This document shows, piece by piece, positions 34,806-39,368 of a DNA stretch of 64,000 nt. The notes beneath the pieces were generated by a model that had not been told where the DNA came from, made no database searches, and worked only from the letters and a program-made list of their open reading frames with translations. This stretch comes from an uncultured Actinomycetes bacterium. GTDB taxonomy: Bacteria; Actinomycetota; Acidimicrobiia; Acidimicrobiales; RAAP-2. The translations under genes were made by a program, and so were the position numbers. Position 1 is the first letter of the stretch. Each line of letters opens with the position of its first letter. The stretch covers positions 1 to 64,000 of the forward strand of contig CAIKNP010000009.1 of the NCBI GenBank assembly GCA_903828785.1, written 5' to 3'.

Positions 34806-34828
34806 GAACTCGACCTCGGACTGGGATT

Positions 34829-34849
34829 TGATAATGATTCTCATTCTCA
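34829..34849. promoter_or_regulatory. candidate Zur operator
   Basis: TGATAATGA-TTC-TCATTCTCA is a near-perfect 9-3-9 inverted repeat of the Fur/Zur type. It ends 2 bp before the -10 box of zip, where a bound repressor would block RNA polymerase. The zip and zur genes directly downstream support Zur, not Fur. Confidence 0.75.
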
Positions 34850-34851
34850 AA

Positions 34852-34857
34852 TAAGGT
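34852..34857 (+). promoter_or_regulatory. -10 box of zip operon (leaderless)
   Basis: TAAGGT lies 6 nt before the zip ATG and 2 bp after the Zur-type operator. Confidence 0.55.
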
Positions 34858-34863
34858 GGCAGA

Positions 34864-35604
34864 ATGCACGTCGCCCTGCTGTACGCCGCCCTCACTGGCG
34901 TGGCCACGGCCATCGGTGGGATGCTGGCCCTGCGAACCCGCGATCGATTGCACCTCATCCTTGGCCTCGCGGCTGGTCTCATGCTCGGTCTGGTCGGCTT
35001 CGATCTACTCCCCAGCGTCTTTGCGTTGGATCATCGCAGCCTTGGTCACGTTCCCGTCGTCGCCCTGTGCTTCATTGGAGGCTTTGTCCTCCTGCACTTA
35101 GTGGAGCGCATGTTCGCCACCCACGAACCCAGCGAGTCGGAATACGAATCGCATTCCCAGCACCACCACGCGGGAGCGGGAACGGCCACCGGTATCGCCA
35201 TGATTGGGCACGTGTTCTTGGACGGCGTGGGCATAGGTGCGGCCTTTCACGTGAGCACGGGGCTGGGTCTCGCGGTCTTCGTGGCCCTGATGGTGCACGC
35301 CTTCAACGACGGACTCAATACCGTCACCTTTCTCATCCGCGCGCATCGCTGGACCACTCGTGCCCGTTGGCTGCTCGCGGTGGACTTCCTCTCGCGCGTT
35401 GGTGGCGCGGCCTTCGGCTCCTACTTTCTCCTCAATTCCTCCTTCGTCGCCATTTACCTTGCTCTGTTTTCGGGCTTCGTCATCTACATCGCTACCTCGC
35501 ACATCTTGCCCGAAGCACACTCCAATCACCCCTCGCGTTGGACCGTGGTGATGACCATCATTGGCGTTCTCGTGATGTGGGGAGTCGTCGCCCTTGGCGC
35601 GTAA
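34864..35604 (+). CDS. ZIP family metal transporter
   Basis: A 246-residue membrane protein with eight or so helices. It carries the ZIP metal sites: the His-rich cytoplasmic loop (ESHSQHHHAGAG), helix IV HVFLDGVGIGAAF and helix V MVHAFNDGLNTV. It should import zinc, perhaps also iron or manganese. The Zur box upstream and the zur gene overlapping its 3' end by 11 nt point to zinc. It is first in the zip-zur-pgeF-murL-murD2 unit. Confidence 0.88.
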   Translation: MHVALLYAALTGVATAIGGMLALRTRDRLHLILGLAAGLMLGLVGFDLLPSVFALDHRSLGHVPVVALCFIGGFVLLHLVERMFATHEPSESEYESHSQHHHAGAGTATGIAMIGHVFLDGVGIGAAFHVSTGLGLAVFVALMVHAFNDGLNTVTFLIRAHRWTTRARWLLAVDFLSRVGGAAFGSYFLLNSSFVAIYLALFSGFVIYIATSHILPEAHSNHPSRWTVVMTIIGVLVMWGVVALGA

Positions 35605-35968
35605 AACCGTCGACATCGTCGTGGGCGCGCTACGTGCCGGCGAGGGCTTCACCACGGCCCAAGCGGTGCACTCACGCGCCATTGCCCTGGGTCACAGTGT
35701 CTCCGTCGCGACCGTGTACCGAACCCTTCGCTTGCTGGCCGATGCTGGCACGGTCGACCAGATGGTTGGCGACGACGCGCAGCTGCGCTATCGCTTCTGC
35801 GGTGACGCCCACCACCACCACCTCGTCTGTCGCTCCTGCGGCCTCACGCTGGAGGTGGAGGCCGCCGTCATCGAAAACTGGACGAATGAGATGGCCCAGG
35901 CCCGTGGCTTCGTTGACGTTCGCCACATCCTCGAAATTTCTGGCGTGTGTTCGACGTGCTCCGCGTAA
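35594..35968 (+). CDS. zur: Fur-family repressor, probably Zur
   Basis: A 124-residue Fur-family regulator. The winged helix includes SVATVYRTLRLLADAGTVDQ; the metal region has HHHHLVCRSCG and the C-terminal ISGVCSTCSA, which together form the structural Cys4 zinc site. Regulatory metal ligands (HHHH and nearby Glu/His) are present. It begins with a TTG that overlaps zip by 11 nt and overlaps pgeF by 22 nt. It presumably represses its own operon when zinc is ample. Confidence 0.85.
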   Translation: MARKTVDIVVGALRAGEGFTTAQAVHSRAIALGHSVSVATVYRTLRLLADAGTVDQMVGDDAQLRYRFCGDAHHHHLVCRSCGLTLEVEAAVIENWTNEMAQARGFVDVRHILEISGVCSTCSA

Positions 35969-36753
35969 GTCTCGTCCAACAGTTCCGCCACGGGCTGCCG
36001 GTCTACCCCATCGAGCCCTTCTTAGCCTTTGGGGTCGACGCCTTTCTCACGGGTCGGCCCGGTGGCGTTAGCCTCGCCCCCTACGCCGAATTGAACCTCG
36101 GACTACACGTGGGAGATGAAGCGGCCAGGGTCGAAGAGAATCGGCGACGAGTAGCCCTCGCCGCCGACGTCGCCATCACGGAGCTCGTCTTCACCCAGCA
36201 GGTGCACGGAGCCGACGTGAACCTCGTCACTAGCCCGTCCACCTTCATCGGTGACGCGCTCATCACCAGGACTGACGATCTCGCCCTCGCAGTCCTCGCC
36301 GCCGATTGCATCCCCTTGCTGGTCGCCGATTCCTTTTCGAATCAGTTCGCCCTTATTCACGCCGGCTGGCGAGGTCTCGCCGCGGGGGTCATCGCCCGCA
36401 CACTGTCGCACTTTCCCGACCCGACGACCCTGCACGTCTTCCTCGGGCCCAGCATTTCCGCAGCGGCGTACCAGGTGGGTGCCGAAGTGGCCACGCACTT
36501 TGCCAGCATTCCGGGGGCCGTGGTGGACGACGTGAGTCCCGACGACCAGCCACGCTTTCGCCTCGACGTCGCCGGCGTCGCCCGTGATCAACTTCGGCAC
36601 ATTGGTGTGCCCGTCGCCCAGACCTACCTCAGCGACACCACTACTGATGGTGGGGCGACCTTCTTTAGTGACCGGGCCCAGCGTCCAACTGGACGTTTCG
36701 CGCTCGTGGCTCGCCGTGCGTCCTACGATTACGCCATGGGAGTGGAGCAATGA
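35947..36753 (+). CDS. pgeF: peptidoglycan editing factor PgeF (YfiH/YlmD, laccase-domain)
   Basis: A 268-residue member of the Cu-oxidase_4 family. Conserved sites are LNLGLHVGDEAARVEENRR, TQQVHGADV, AADCIPLLVAD (metal-binding Cys), HAGWRGLAAGVI and GPSISAAAYQVG. In E. coli the family member YfiH was described as preventing mis-incorporation of serine at the first stem-peptide position; others have purine-nucleoside activity. The start GTG is inside zur, and a later start is possible. It overlaps murL by 4 nt, which supports the peptidoglycan role. Confidence 0.85.
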   Translation: MFDVLRVSLVQQFRHGLPVYPIEPFLAFGVDAFLTGRPGGVSLAPYAELNLGLHVGDEAARVEENRRRVALAADVAITELVFTQQVHGADVNLVTSPSTFIGDALITRTDDLALAVLAADCIPLLVADSFSNQFALIHAGWRGLAAGVIARTLSHFPDPTTLHVFLGPSISAAAYQVGAEVATHFASIPGAVVDDVSPDDQPRFRLDVAGVARDQLRHIGVPVAQTYLSDTTTDGGATFFSDRAQRPTGRFALVARRASYDYAMGVEQ

Positions 36754-38027
36754 ACCGCGCGCAGCGTTTCACTTATCGCGGTATGGACGTCGTGGGGGAC
36801 GAGCTGATTGGTCACTACGATCTCGACGGCGTCACCTTCACCGAGCGAGTCAGCGTGACCGACGGTGACCTCACCCTTCCCGCGAGCCGCGCCCTCGCCG
36901 GTCTCTGGTATCTCCTCGCCGGTCTCTCCTACTACAAGGCCGGGGCCGCCCAGGTCGTCGACTTCGGTGATCAGCCGGTCGGCGCTCACGGCCGCGCGCT
37001 CCTCGAGGCAGCCCTGCTCGACGGATTGGGCGAGTTCGCCTACCGCAACGACCTTGACCTCAGTGACGTGGTCTTCGAGGGTGGTCTCGCCCTCGAGCCC
37101 GTCGCCTACGCCGGGCTCCCCGAGCGAGTCCTCATCCCCTTTGGTGGTGGAATCGACTCAGTGGTGACCGTCGCCGCCTTAGCCCACCTCGATCGACGCC
37201 TCTTCGTGGTGAGTCCCGCGAGTGGGCGTTTTGCGCCCCTCGAGGAGTGCGCCGCGCTCACCGGGCTGCCGGTAGCGCGCGTGGAGCGGCAAATCGATTT
37301 AGCGGGTCTGCGCGCCAAGCGCACTTTCTTCAATGGTCACGTGCCCGTCACCGCGATGGTCACCCTGCTCGCGTGCATCCAGGCCGTCTCGCAGCAGTGT
37401 CACGGGGTGGCAATGAGCAACGAGCACTCCGCCTCCGTGCCCAACCTGCACTGGCGAGGTCGGGCCGTTAACCACCAGTGGAGTAAGTCGCTCGAAGCCG
37501 AACTTCTCATCGCTGGGGCAGTGGCCGAACGCATCGGTGACGATTTCGTCGTCGCCAGCTTCTTGCGCGACCGCAGTGAGATCTGGGTAGGTCAGCAATT
37601 CGCGACGCTCACCGACTTTCACGCGGTCTTTCGATCCTGCAACCGAGCCTTCCGGCAAAACGCCGCTGACCGAGCCGCCCAGTGGTGCGGTGAGTGCGAC
37701 AAGTGTCTGTTTATCAACCTCGTCCTCGCACCCTTCCTGTCGCGTACAGAACTGCGCACTATTTTCGCCAGCGAACCACTGGCCAATCCCGCCCTCGAGG
37801 CTCAACTCGCCACGCTGGTGGGACTGGGGCGAGAGGTCAAGCCCTTCGAGTGCGTCGGTGACCCCGACGAGAGCGCCAGCGCCCTCGTGGAAGTGTCGCG
37901 CCTCGCGGCGTGGTCCGACGTGGCGATCCTGGCGGACTTAGCCCAGCGCGTCCACCCCGAGCGCAGCTTCCGCGAACTCCTTCAGCCGCAAGGAGCCAGC
38001 CGTGTCCCGGCTCACTGGCTTCGCTGA
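36750..38027 (+). CDS. murL: UDP-MurNAc-L-Ala-L-Glu epimerase
   Basis: A 425-residue protein of the MurL family, described from Xanthomonas: it changes the L-Glu of UDP-MurNAc-L-Ala-L-Glu to D-Glu, using ATP. It shows a PP-loop-like IPFGGGIDSVVTVAAL near residue 130, GVAMSNEHSASVPN, and a C-terminal cysteine set AAQWCGECDKCLFINLVLAP that resembles the zinc site of QueC-type enzymes. It overlaps pgeF by 4 nt and the MurD-like ligase by 26 nt. That ligase is the expected partner, which supports the assignment. Confidence 0.88.
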   Translation: MNRAQRFTYRGMDVVGDELIGHYDLDGVTFTERVSVTDGDLTLPASRALAGLWYLLAGLSYYKAGAAQVVDFGDQPVGAHGRALLEAALLDGLGEFAYRNDLDLSDVVFEGGLALEPVAYAGLPERVLIPFGGGIDSVVTVAALAHLDRRLFVVSPASGRFAPLEECAALTGLPVARVERQIDLAGLRAKRTFFNGHVPVTAMVTLLACIQAVSQQCHGVAMSNEHSASVPNLHWRGRAVNHQWSKSLEAELLIAGAVAERIGDDFVVASFLRDRSEIWVGQQFATLTDFHAVFRSCNRAFRQNAADRAAQWCGECDKCLFINLVLAPFLSRTELRTIFASEPLANPALEAQLATLVGLGREVKPFECVGDPDESASALVEVSRLAAWSDVAILADLAQRVHPERSFRELLQPQGASRVPAHWLR

Positions 38028-39291
38028 TCTGGCGGGTCGTCGCGTCGGTCTCTACGGCGTGGGTGTCGAAGGTCGCGCCGCTGAGGCGCGCCTCGTCGGC
38101 GTGACCAGTGACCTTGTCCTCGTCGACGACAATCCTTCCAGTCCCGATGTTCAGCGAAGCGACGAAGGGGGACTCGAGGCCTTAATGACTTGCGAGGTCG
38201 TCCTCAAGAGTTCCGGCGTGCCCACTCGCTCGCCGGTAGTGGAGCAACTCCGCGAGGCCGGTGTTGAGGTCACTTCCGCGCTCAATCTTTGGATGAACGA
38301 GGTTGACCGAGAACGCGTCGTTGCCGTGACCGGCACGAAGGGCAAGTCGACCACCACGTCGCTGGTGGCCTTCCTCCTCGAGTGCACTGGCGCCACCGCC
38401 CACCGCTTGGGCAACATCGGCCAGCCCCCCTACGACCCCAGCGTGGACATCAGCGAGGGTTGGTGCGTCGTCGAGCTCTCTAGTTTTCAGAGCGCGGACC
38501 TTAGGGTGTCGCCGCCCCGAGTGGCCATCACCTCACTCGGGTCCGATCACCTGGACTGGCACGGTTCGCTCGCGCAGTACTGGCGGGACAAACTGACGGT
38601 TACTCGCTGCCCCGGCAGCCGATCGACCTTCGTCGCCGACAGCCCCAGCCTGCGACAGCAAGGTGACAATATCGGCGGAGTGATCCATTGGATCGCCCCC
38701 GACAGTTCGGGGCTCGCTGAAGCGCTCCACTTGCAGGGAGCCCACTCCCGGTCCAATGTGGCCCTCGCTCTCGCCCTCGTGGCTGACGCCCTCGCTACCA
38801 GTGTCGACGAGATTCGCCGCGCCGCGTTTGAGTGCGCGGACTCCTTCGTGCCACTACGTGGTCGTCTCACCTACCTCGGTACCTATCAAGGGGTTCGTTA
38901 TATCGACGACGGATTAGCCACCTCCGTCCTCCCGGCCGTCGCGGCCCTGGAGGTCTTCGCTGGCGAAGCTCTCACCATGATTGTCGGGGGTTTCGACCGC
39001 GGGGTTGACTACGAAGCGCTGGCGCAGGCCTTGGCGCAGCGAGGCGCACCTACCTCGGTTGTGGCCCTCGGACCGGCTGGCCTTCGAATCGCTGATGAGA
39101 TTCGCCGACGCTCGGACCAGGTGACGGTCCAGGTCGCGTCCACGATGGACGAGGCCGTGCGGCTGGCGCGGGCGAGTCGACGTGGCGAGGGTGTGGTGCT
39201 GTTTTCACCGGCCGCCCCGAGTTTTGACCAGTACGCCAATTGGCTGGAGCGTAGTGAGGATTTCGCGCGACTGGCGGCTTCCACGGAGTGA
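38002..39291 (+). CDS. murD2: MurD-family ligase, probably the L-Glu-adding MurD2
   Basis: A 429-residue Mur ligase that attaches glutamate to UDP-MurNAc-L-Ala. The ATP loop is VAVTGTKGKSTTTSL, then HRLGNIGQPP, SLGSDHLDWHGSLAQYWRDK, and the C-terminal MurD signature FSPAAPSFDQYANWLERSEDF with the DRGVDYEAL loop. Adjacent murL implies that it uses L-Glu (MurD2) instead of D-Glu; sequence alone cannot prove the stereochemistry. It starts inside murL with a 26-nt overlap and ends just before the oppositely oriented tRNA-Thr. Confidence 0.85.
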   Translation: MSRLTGFADLAGRRVGLYGVGVEGRAAEARLVGVTSDLVLVDDNPSSPDVQRSDEGGLEALMTCEVVLKSSGVPTRSPVVEQLREAGVEVTSALNLWMNEVDRERVVAVTGTKGKSTTTSLVAFLLECTGATAHRLGNIGQPPYDPSVDISEGWCVVELSSFQSADLRVSPPRVAITSLGSDHLDWHGSLAQYWRDKLTVTRCPGSRSTFVADSPSLRQQGDNIGGVIHWIAPDSSGLAEALHLQGAHSRSNVALALALVADALATSVDEIRRAAFECADSFVPLRGRLTYLGTYQGVRYIDDGLATSVLPAVAALEVFAGEALTMIVGGFDRGVDYEALAQALAQRGAPTSVVALGPAGLRIADEIRRRSDQVTVQVASTMDEAVRLARASRRGEGVVLFSPAAPSFDQYANWLERSEDFARLAASTE

Positions 39292-39295
39292 GTGG

Positions 39296-39368
39296 AGCCT
39301 GGGAGGGGAATCGAACCCCTGACCTGCTCATTACGAATGAGCTGCTCTGCCGGCTGAGCTACCCAGGC
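39296..39368 (-). tRNA. tRNA-Thr (anticodon CGT)
   Basis: On the minus strand: acceptor GCCTGGG/CCCAGGC, D stem GCTC/GAGC, anticodon loop TTCGTAA (CGT) closed by GCTCA/TGAGC, T arm AGGGGTTCGATTCCCCT. CCA is not encoded. A TAGAGT -10 box lies about 10 bp upstream of the 5' end. Confidence 0.95.

Follow-up and report, generated by a model that had tools for sequence, protein, structure and literature searches.

The window analysed here, 64,000 nucleotides of contig CAIKNP010000009.1 from an uncultured bacterium of the Acidimicrobiales, contains on its forward strand a run of five genes, zip-zur-pgeF-murL-murD2, preceded by a Zur-type operator; the source genome amounts to 1.56 Mb in 28 contigs and is 96.5% complete. 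The first gene, zip (34864-35604), encodes a predicted zinc importer of the ZIP family (PF02535, 54.6 bits against a cut-off of 35.1, E = 1.3e-14), which also matches the ZupT model with an E value of 7e-16, well under the cut-off of that model. It is followed by zur (35594-35968, TTG start), for a predicted zinc-sensing repressor of the Fur family (FUR, PF01475, 84.1 bits), and by pgeF, also known as yfiH or ylmD (35947-36753, GTG start), a member of the family of amidases that act on UDP-N-acetylmuramoyl-L-serine (UDP-MurNAc-L-Ser) and edit position 1 of the stem peptide (PF02578, 190.5 bits, E = 4e-56). The product of murL (36750-38027, ATG start) matches NF041275 over residues 22-422 (288 bits, E = 1e-85), scoring beneath the cut-off of 700 bits of this model, which was trained on Xanthomonads, and carries a GGGIDS loop as well as Cys297, Cys313, Cys316, and Cys319. 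The last gene, murD2 (38002-39291, GTG start), exceeds the cut-off of the MurD model TIGR01087 (263.5 bits against 212). The earlier note had described five genes on one strand, each overlapping the next by 11, 22, 4, and 26 nucleotides, and this arrangement was confirmed to the base, as were the family assignments. The PDB entry nearest to PgeF is E. coli YfiH, with which the catalytic Gln-x-His, Asp, Cys, and His residues (PMC8844914) align. The idea that PgeF is itself a zinc enzyme was dropped, since the paper describing the structure of YfiH (PMC8844914) gives a Cys-His-Asp amidase.

The promoter ahead of zip consists of a −35 element TTGATA (34828-34833, forward strand), a spacer of 18 nucleotides, and a −10 element TAAGGT (34852-34857, forward strand), which ends 6 nucleotides ahead of the zip ATG at 34864 and thus yields a leaderless start. 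The operator TGATAATGATTCTCATTCTCA (34829-34849, forward strand) covers the −35 element and most of the spacer. The 9-3-9 palindrome of the earlier note can be read in it, with eight of nine pairs matching, but its core is a 7-1-7 box of 15 bp, TGATAATGATTCTCA (34829-34843), in which TGATAAT and ATTCTCA flank a central G, a known form of Fur-family operators; the extended 9-3-9 form reaches to 34849. With up to three mismatches, the operator was matched once in the window against 0.00 matches expected from shuffled sequences, and its core is the sole perfect match of the strict pattern TGANAATNATTNTCA in the whole genome. In two other genomes (G102 and G047) the perfect box likewise occurs exactly once, again at this locus, and the boxes with one mismatch that G055 and G102 have at other places fall within open reading frames and were dropped. 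A leaderless signature was defined as TANNNT placed 5-7 nucleotides before an in-frame start codon. The assignment of a leaderless −10 box in the earlier note is well supported, because the same layout of TANNNT, 6 nucleotides, and ATG is present in all five loci of the zip type; TTGAwA with a spacer of 17-18 nucleotides is likewise visible in three of them (L036, L053, and L057), and the GGTGG of the window does not have to be read as a Shine-Dalgarno sequence. This layout, together with the conservation of the locus described below, points to an operon that is probably under the control of Zur and that pairs zinc import with the steps concerning positions 1 and 2 of the muropeptide precursor.

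The earlier note had suggested searching related Acidimicrobiia for this gene order, and it was found far beyond chance: zur, pgeF, murL, and murD2 are contiguous in 34 loci from 33 distinct genomes, L034 and L044 being from the same one. The nearest named loci with MurL belong to metagenome-assembled genomes labelled Acidimicrobiaceae, Acidimicrobiales, or Actinomycetes bacterium. When start codons are picked by similarity, zur overlaps pgeF and murL overlaps murD2 in every linked locus (34/34 each, the latter by exactly 26 nucleotides in 32), the gap between pgeF and murL does not exceed 29 nucleotides in any, and the overlap of zip and zur is 11 nucleotides in all five loci of the zip type. 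The slot upstream of zur is mostly occupied by a divergent znuA-znuC-znuB cluster of zinc ATP-binding cassette (ABC) transporter genes, like AztA, AztB, and ZnuB, and in five loci (the window, L036, L037, L053, and L057) by a co-directional zip; in L042 neither was detected. Where the contig reaches far enough, the locus is bordered by tilS and hprt at one end and by holB at the opposite end. In the window itself, a tRNA-Thr (CGT) gene on the reverse strand (39293-39368) begins 1 nucleotide past the stop codon of murD2, so that the operon abuts a convergent tRNA gene. One record with the full locus of the Acidimicrobiia type, L045 (JABBOA010000004.1), is titled Acidobacteria bacterium and is probably mislabelled.

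In all five zip loci the box lies 32-36 nucleotides ahead of the zip start and the leaderless signature is present, which is also found before zur in 25 of the 30 loci where zur is the first gene, a set that includes L067, with an unlinked zur, and the duplicate L044. The loci with znuA and zur carry, between these two genes, a variant box with a GAAtCATTC core, missed by the strict pattern and recovered with a score combining palindrome and core. These variant boxes are doubled in about 20 loci, the two starts being spaced exactly 24 bp apart (among them L033, L034, L035, L043, L047, L050-L052, L058, L066, and L071), which, as a pattern in the DNA, suggests either that each divergent promoter has a Zur dimer of its own or that binding is cooperative. 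The MurD2 of the window groups with that of L042, which has a Zur of the znu type, whereas the Zur of the window lies outside the znu-type group. As these placements differ, they suggest that one zinc cassette was replaced by another at the same place with the arrangement kept, the support for the zip-type Zur group being weak.

The earlier note had also allowed for an internal promoter that would loosen the link between zinc and the mur genes. For the leaderless type this concern found no support in the case of pgeF and murD2, neither of which is preceded by the signature in any of the 35 loci that carry zur (0/35 each), nor does zur have it when it stands behind zip (0/5); the signature does occur before murL in one locus of 35, and a promoter of the leadered type may exist within the operon. 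A scan with a sigma-70 consensus reported no forward-strand promoter in the region but missed that of zip as well, and it was not used as evidence on this point. The possible leadered promoter is one of several points that weigh against the control of the whole operon by Zur. As the only murD of the genome, murD2 is presumably essential, and an essential gene can stand under a repressor only with leakage or a second promoter; repression must therefore be incomplete here, unless a further promoter, of the leadered type, is present. In addition, it is more usual for Zur regulons to exchange zinc proteins for zinc-free counterparts than to raise the level of zinc-dependent ones. Five loci (L031, L046, L049, L059, and L074) have pgeF-murL-murD2 with neither an adjacent zur nor a box, pgeF following tilS in each, and the genome of L031 (G063) contains no zur homologue with the zinc ligands anywhere. 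L026 and L075 have a perfect box in the stretch separating znuA from pgeF, with pgeF preceded by a −10 element of its own. Finally, the ligase departs from the MurD2 type at one of the four published specificity positions, as described below. Direct control of pgeF by Zur in L026 and L075 is doubtful from the promoter positions, the box of L075 being too far upstream to block that of pgeF, and these two loci were not counted in favour of the proposal.

Several of these observations could be accommodated if the gene neighbourhood were simply inherited, pgeF-murL-murD2 having landed behind zur once, with an undetected promoter in zur or pgeF dominating and Zur controlling only zip or znu and zur itself. 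Expression of an essential murD2 under plentiful zinc would then need no further explanation, relatives without an adjacent zur evidently manage, and pgeF does have its own leaderless −10 element in L026, L031, L059, and L076. Such an origin is nevertheless unlikely, although it is the most serious of the alternatives: the 35 loci carrying zur lack a leaderless −10 element before pgeF or murD2 and have one before murL in a single case, the zur-pgeF and murL-murD2 overlaps persist in every linked locus, and the upstream slot holds either of two distinct zinc cassettes, znuACB/zur or zip/zur, with the trees of MurD2 and Zur suggesting that one was swapped for the other while the arrangement stayed. 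Loss of the arrangement does occur, and the box then disappears together with zur; the linkage between zur and the cell-wall genes is thus favoured but not obligatory, some relatives having lost both zur and the box.

The identity of the regulator cannot be read from its operator alone. The core of the window box agrees in 12 of 14 positions with the Streptomyces (S. coelicolor) Zur consensus, TGAAAATGATTTTCA (PMC2823685), and in 13 of 14 with a consensus of the B. subtilis-type Fur box, while the box of L057 agrees in 13 of 14 positions with the core of a published C. glutamicum Zur site (PMC2823685). Because the box resembles both types, it is the ligands of the protein, not the DNA, that decide. 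Among solved structures, those closest to the protein are FurB of M. tuberculosis and Zur of S. coelicolor (ScZur), and all metal ligands of the latter that were checked, as defined in PMC11077047, are kept in the protein of the window (His36, Asp65, Cys79, His84-His87, Cys90, Cys93, Glu105, and His122 in the ScZur numbering). All homologues that stand in direct linkage with pgeF have the same ligands, including Cys79 of the M site. Two other Fur-family proteins of the genome (G000:C10:92146-92508 and G000:C27:68919-69275) lack Cys79, as well as several of the other ligands. With the structural CxxC pairs, the ligands of the M and D sites, and a 7-1-7 operator before zip all present, the regulator is assigned by its sequence to the zinc-type repressors of the Fur family (Zur), with zinc-dependent DNA binding and repression as predicted properties. 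That the protein senses iron or manganese instead, with ZIP importing that metal and the operon following it, is highly improbable: the ambiguity of the box and the sometimes broad substrate range of ZIP transporters would permit it, but the conserved ligands, the lack of Cys79 in the other Fur paralogues, the Zur nature of the nearest structures, and the zinc ABC genes found in the same slot in most relatives all speak for zinc.

The other half of the proposal, that MurL and MurD2 supply D-Glu, was examined by profile searches of the genome. No MurI, no member of the Asp/Glu racemase family PF01177, no D-amino-acid aminotransferase above the cut-off, and no second MurD above the cut-off were found in it, so that the strongest genomic objection named in the earlier note, a canonical murI and murD elsewhere, did not materialize, and the MurL-MurD2 pair is the only route to D-Glu detectable in the genome. 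MurL is present in 13 of 148 genomes of the class, including all 11 sampled members of the family to which the window belongs; MurI above the cut-off is absent from all 13, whereas 87 of the remaining genomes of the class have it. Another family of the class (f15, genomes of ~1 Mb: G005, G011, G017, G025, G029, G033, and G037) has neither MurL nor MurI and no D-amino-acid aminotransferase above the cut-off, yet some of its members give the highest scores of all for the latter (~140-150 bits).

The division and cell-wall (dcw) cluster of the genome reads mraZ-rsmH-ftsL-ftsI-murE-mraY-ftsW-murG-murC-murB-ftsQ-ftsZ-ylmE-sepF-divIVA, the names being mostly assigned by reading the sequences, with murE checked, and both murD and pgeF are missing from it. 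In relatives at the level of the order, murD lies between mraY and ftsW, with both neighbours visible in 27 of 30 loci and one neighbour in the remaining three, which are cut by contig ends; pgeF lies between ftsZ and ylmE in all 26 loci from outside the family. The positions that are empty here are filled in relatives; neither murD nor pgeF is therefore at its standard site any longer, and the two now stand together. The PgeF/YlmD family found at the usual dcw site is the same, with pgeF having moved to murL-murD2 while ylmE and sepF stayed. The MurL-MurD2 module would replace both the lost murI and the lost murD of the dcw cluster.

In X. oryzae MurD2, Glu197 and Arg358 set the specificity for L-Glu, with Pro433 and Phe435 nearby, and in E. 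coli MurD the K319T substitution alone leads to acceptance of L-Glu (PMC8788868). The position of Lys319 (E. coli numbering) is Leu in the ligase of the window and Leu, Ile, or Phe in all MurD2 that have a residue at it, compared with Lys in 29 of 29 canonical enzymes. The position of Lys348, equivalent to Arg358 of X. oryzae, is Arg in the window and in all 57 aligned MurD2 on the Acidimicrobiia side with a residue there, again against Lys in 29/29. The position of Ala414 is Pro in the window and in most MurD2, and that of Leu416 is Phe, which does not discriminate, being present in 18 of 29 canonical enzymes as well. It is the position of Asp182, equivalent to Glu197 of X. oryzae, that is not MurD2-like: Asp is retained in the window and in 58 of 59 members of its group, while Glu is found in 24 of 28 MurD2 from outside that group, most of which are proteobacterial. 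A single group with a support of 99 unites all the canonical relatives in the tree, and the ligases linked to MurL fall outside it; the ligase is therefore not the old murD of the dcw cluster in a new place but came, or evolved, with murL. We provisionally place it, on these residues and the tree, in the L-Glu ligase class (MurD2). It is barely credible that it is an ordinary D-Glu ligase, supplied by an unrecognised racemase, such as a bifunctional DapF, with MurL otherwise employed; the Asp shared with canonical MurD and the ability of Chlamydia DapF to racemise Glu, reported in PMC5885031, fit that view, but MurL and MurI exclude each other in 13 of 13 genomes, and the hydrophobic residue at Lys319 (a position where one substitution suffices in E. 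coli), the Arg at Lys348, and the frequent Pro at Ala414 are opposed to it.

Pairs of MurL and MurD2 were also seen outside the family, in L109 and L119 (Pontimonas), L112 (Nocardioides), and L078 and L084 (Frankiaceae), all of them actinobacteria that the MurL reviews consulted do not list. In the Protofrankia locus L078, pgeF lies directly ahead of murL. In L094, from a metagenome-assembled genome labelled Candidatus Saccharibacteria, the order is reversed, murD2 preceding murL, and either horizontal transfer or a binning error is possible.

MurL is described in two reviews as a protein with no known domains, and neither a convincing relative in the PDB by sequence nor a detectable relation in Pfam was found for it; a PADLOC scan likewise gave no match. 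Its AlphaFold2 model, built on an alignment of 30 sequences (predicted local distance difference test score, pLDDT, 94.5), has as its best Foldseek match the QueC-like Cap9 (9nto; probability 1.00, template modelling score 0.69 on the target, E = 1.1e-3), followed by argininosuccinate synthase, TtuA, MnmA, and ThiI. MurL thus models as a PP-loop ATP pyrophosphatase-type fold. The GGGxDS loop is invariant in the 30 MurLs (Gly132-Gly134, Asp136, and Ser137), as are the four cysteines (30/30), which form the motif C-x15-CGxCxxC. Conversion of ATP to AMP is typical of PP-loop enzymes. The prediction fits the chemistry reported for MurL, which runs from ATP to AMP (PMC8788868). The zinc motif of QueC is C-x8-CxxCxxC (PMC13329287), and a tetracysteine that binds zinc has already been described in another PP-loop enzyme (PMC10607449). 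By analogy with these four-cysteine motifs, MurL, as a PP-loop enzyme, probably binds zinc, the metal itself being a prediction. Compared with the QueC/Cap9 family (PMC13329287), MurL has a model that matches Cap9, the GGGxDS loop, and a cysteine motif similar to that of QueC, but it differs in an N-terminal region peculiar to it, in the lack of any sequence relation detected by Pfam or PDB searches, and in its reaction.

In the proposed mechanism, Zur would bind in the presence of zinc to the box over the −35 element and spacer of the leaderless promoter and repress it, and a drop in zinc would derepress the zip-zur-pgeF-murL-murD2 polycistron, so that the Mur enzymes would rise along with import. 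The enzymes would act in succession on one nucleotide precursor, PgeF removing a wrong residue from position 1, MurD2 adding L-Glu, and MurL flipping it to D-Glu; E. coli PgeF hydrolyses UDP-MurNAc-L-Ser, a by-product of MurC (PMC8844914). Since they work on successive forms of the same precursor, their co-expression would be sensible whatever the signal. As to why the signal should be zinc, a need of MurL for the metal is, we infer, the most economical reason: low zinc would then threaten an essential step, and more enzyme together with more uptake would compensate. The stronger form of this idea, a dedicated zinc-to-wall circuit in which the amount of the cell's sole D-Glu-installing enzymes is under the direct control of Zur, for the reason that MurL is zinc-dependent, and in which precursor synthesis is tuned to zinc, is put forward tentatively, the odds being somewhat against it.

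Comparison with known systems shows which parts of this arrangement have counterparts elsewhere. The MurD2-MurL pairs of Xanthomonas oryzae, Micromonospora, and Salinispora (PMC8788868, PMC5808125) consist of the same adjacent families, with neither murI nor a D-amino-acid aminotransferase, and share an ATP-dependent epimerisation of L- to D-Glu on the nucleotide precursor, predicted here from the genes. What differs is that murL here precedes murD2 with an overlap of 26 nucleotides, that the pair is joined to pgeF and a zinc regulator, and that Asp occupies the position of Asp182; the reported distribution of that pathway does not name Acidimicrobiia, and no link to zinc has been described for it. 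The actinobacterial Zur regulons (C. glutamicum, PMC2823685; S. coelicolor, PMC11077047; reviewed in PMC6103462) have the same type of regulator, the 7-1-7 core, leaderless transcripts for zinc uptake, and repression of zinc import. Their known targets are importers, COG0523 proteins, paralogues of ribosomal proteins, and a few enzymes, with no gene for a peptidoglycan precursor among them in the sources consulted, whereas here genes of the cytoplasmic Mur pathway sit behind zur in the same operon. A precedent for coupling zinc to the wall is ShyB of Vibrio cholerae (PMC6381278), a Zur-regulated cell-wall endopeptidase, which differs in being a hydrolase still active at low zinc, not an enzyme of precursor synthesis, and in belonging to an unrelated locus. 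In Acinetobacter baumannii, MigC-MurD (PMC12208494) also ties zinc status to the MurD step, but there a COG0523 GTPase binds and inhibits the MurD protein, with no operon behind Zur. No Zur-controlled operon for Mur precursors was found in the literature searched, outside of which most subscription papers fell, and the review of Zur (PMC6103462) is silent on peptidoglycan.

The enzymes, the regulator, and the idea of a link between Zur and the wall were thus already known, and what would be new is the proposed placement of the cytoplasmic Mur pathway under Zur. The mechanism of MurL is called unclear in the literature, and the prediction made here is that of an AMP-forming PP-loop enzyme that holds zinc in a site of structural or catalytic function. 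The route through MurL and MurD2 is extended to a widespread family of uncultured actinobacteria. If the proposal is true, an essential housekeeping pathway can come under a metal repressor, with a zinc-binding epimerase as the physiological reason, and in this family of soil and water bacteria the supply of zinc probably helps to set the level of the essential machinery that makes the wall precursor.

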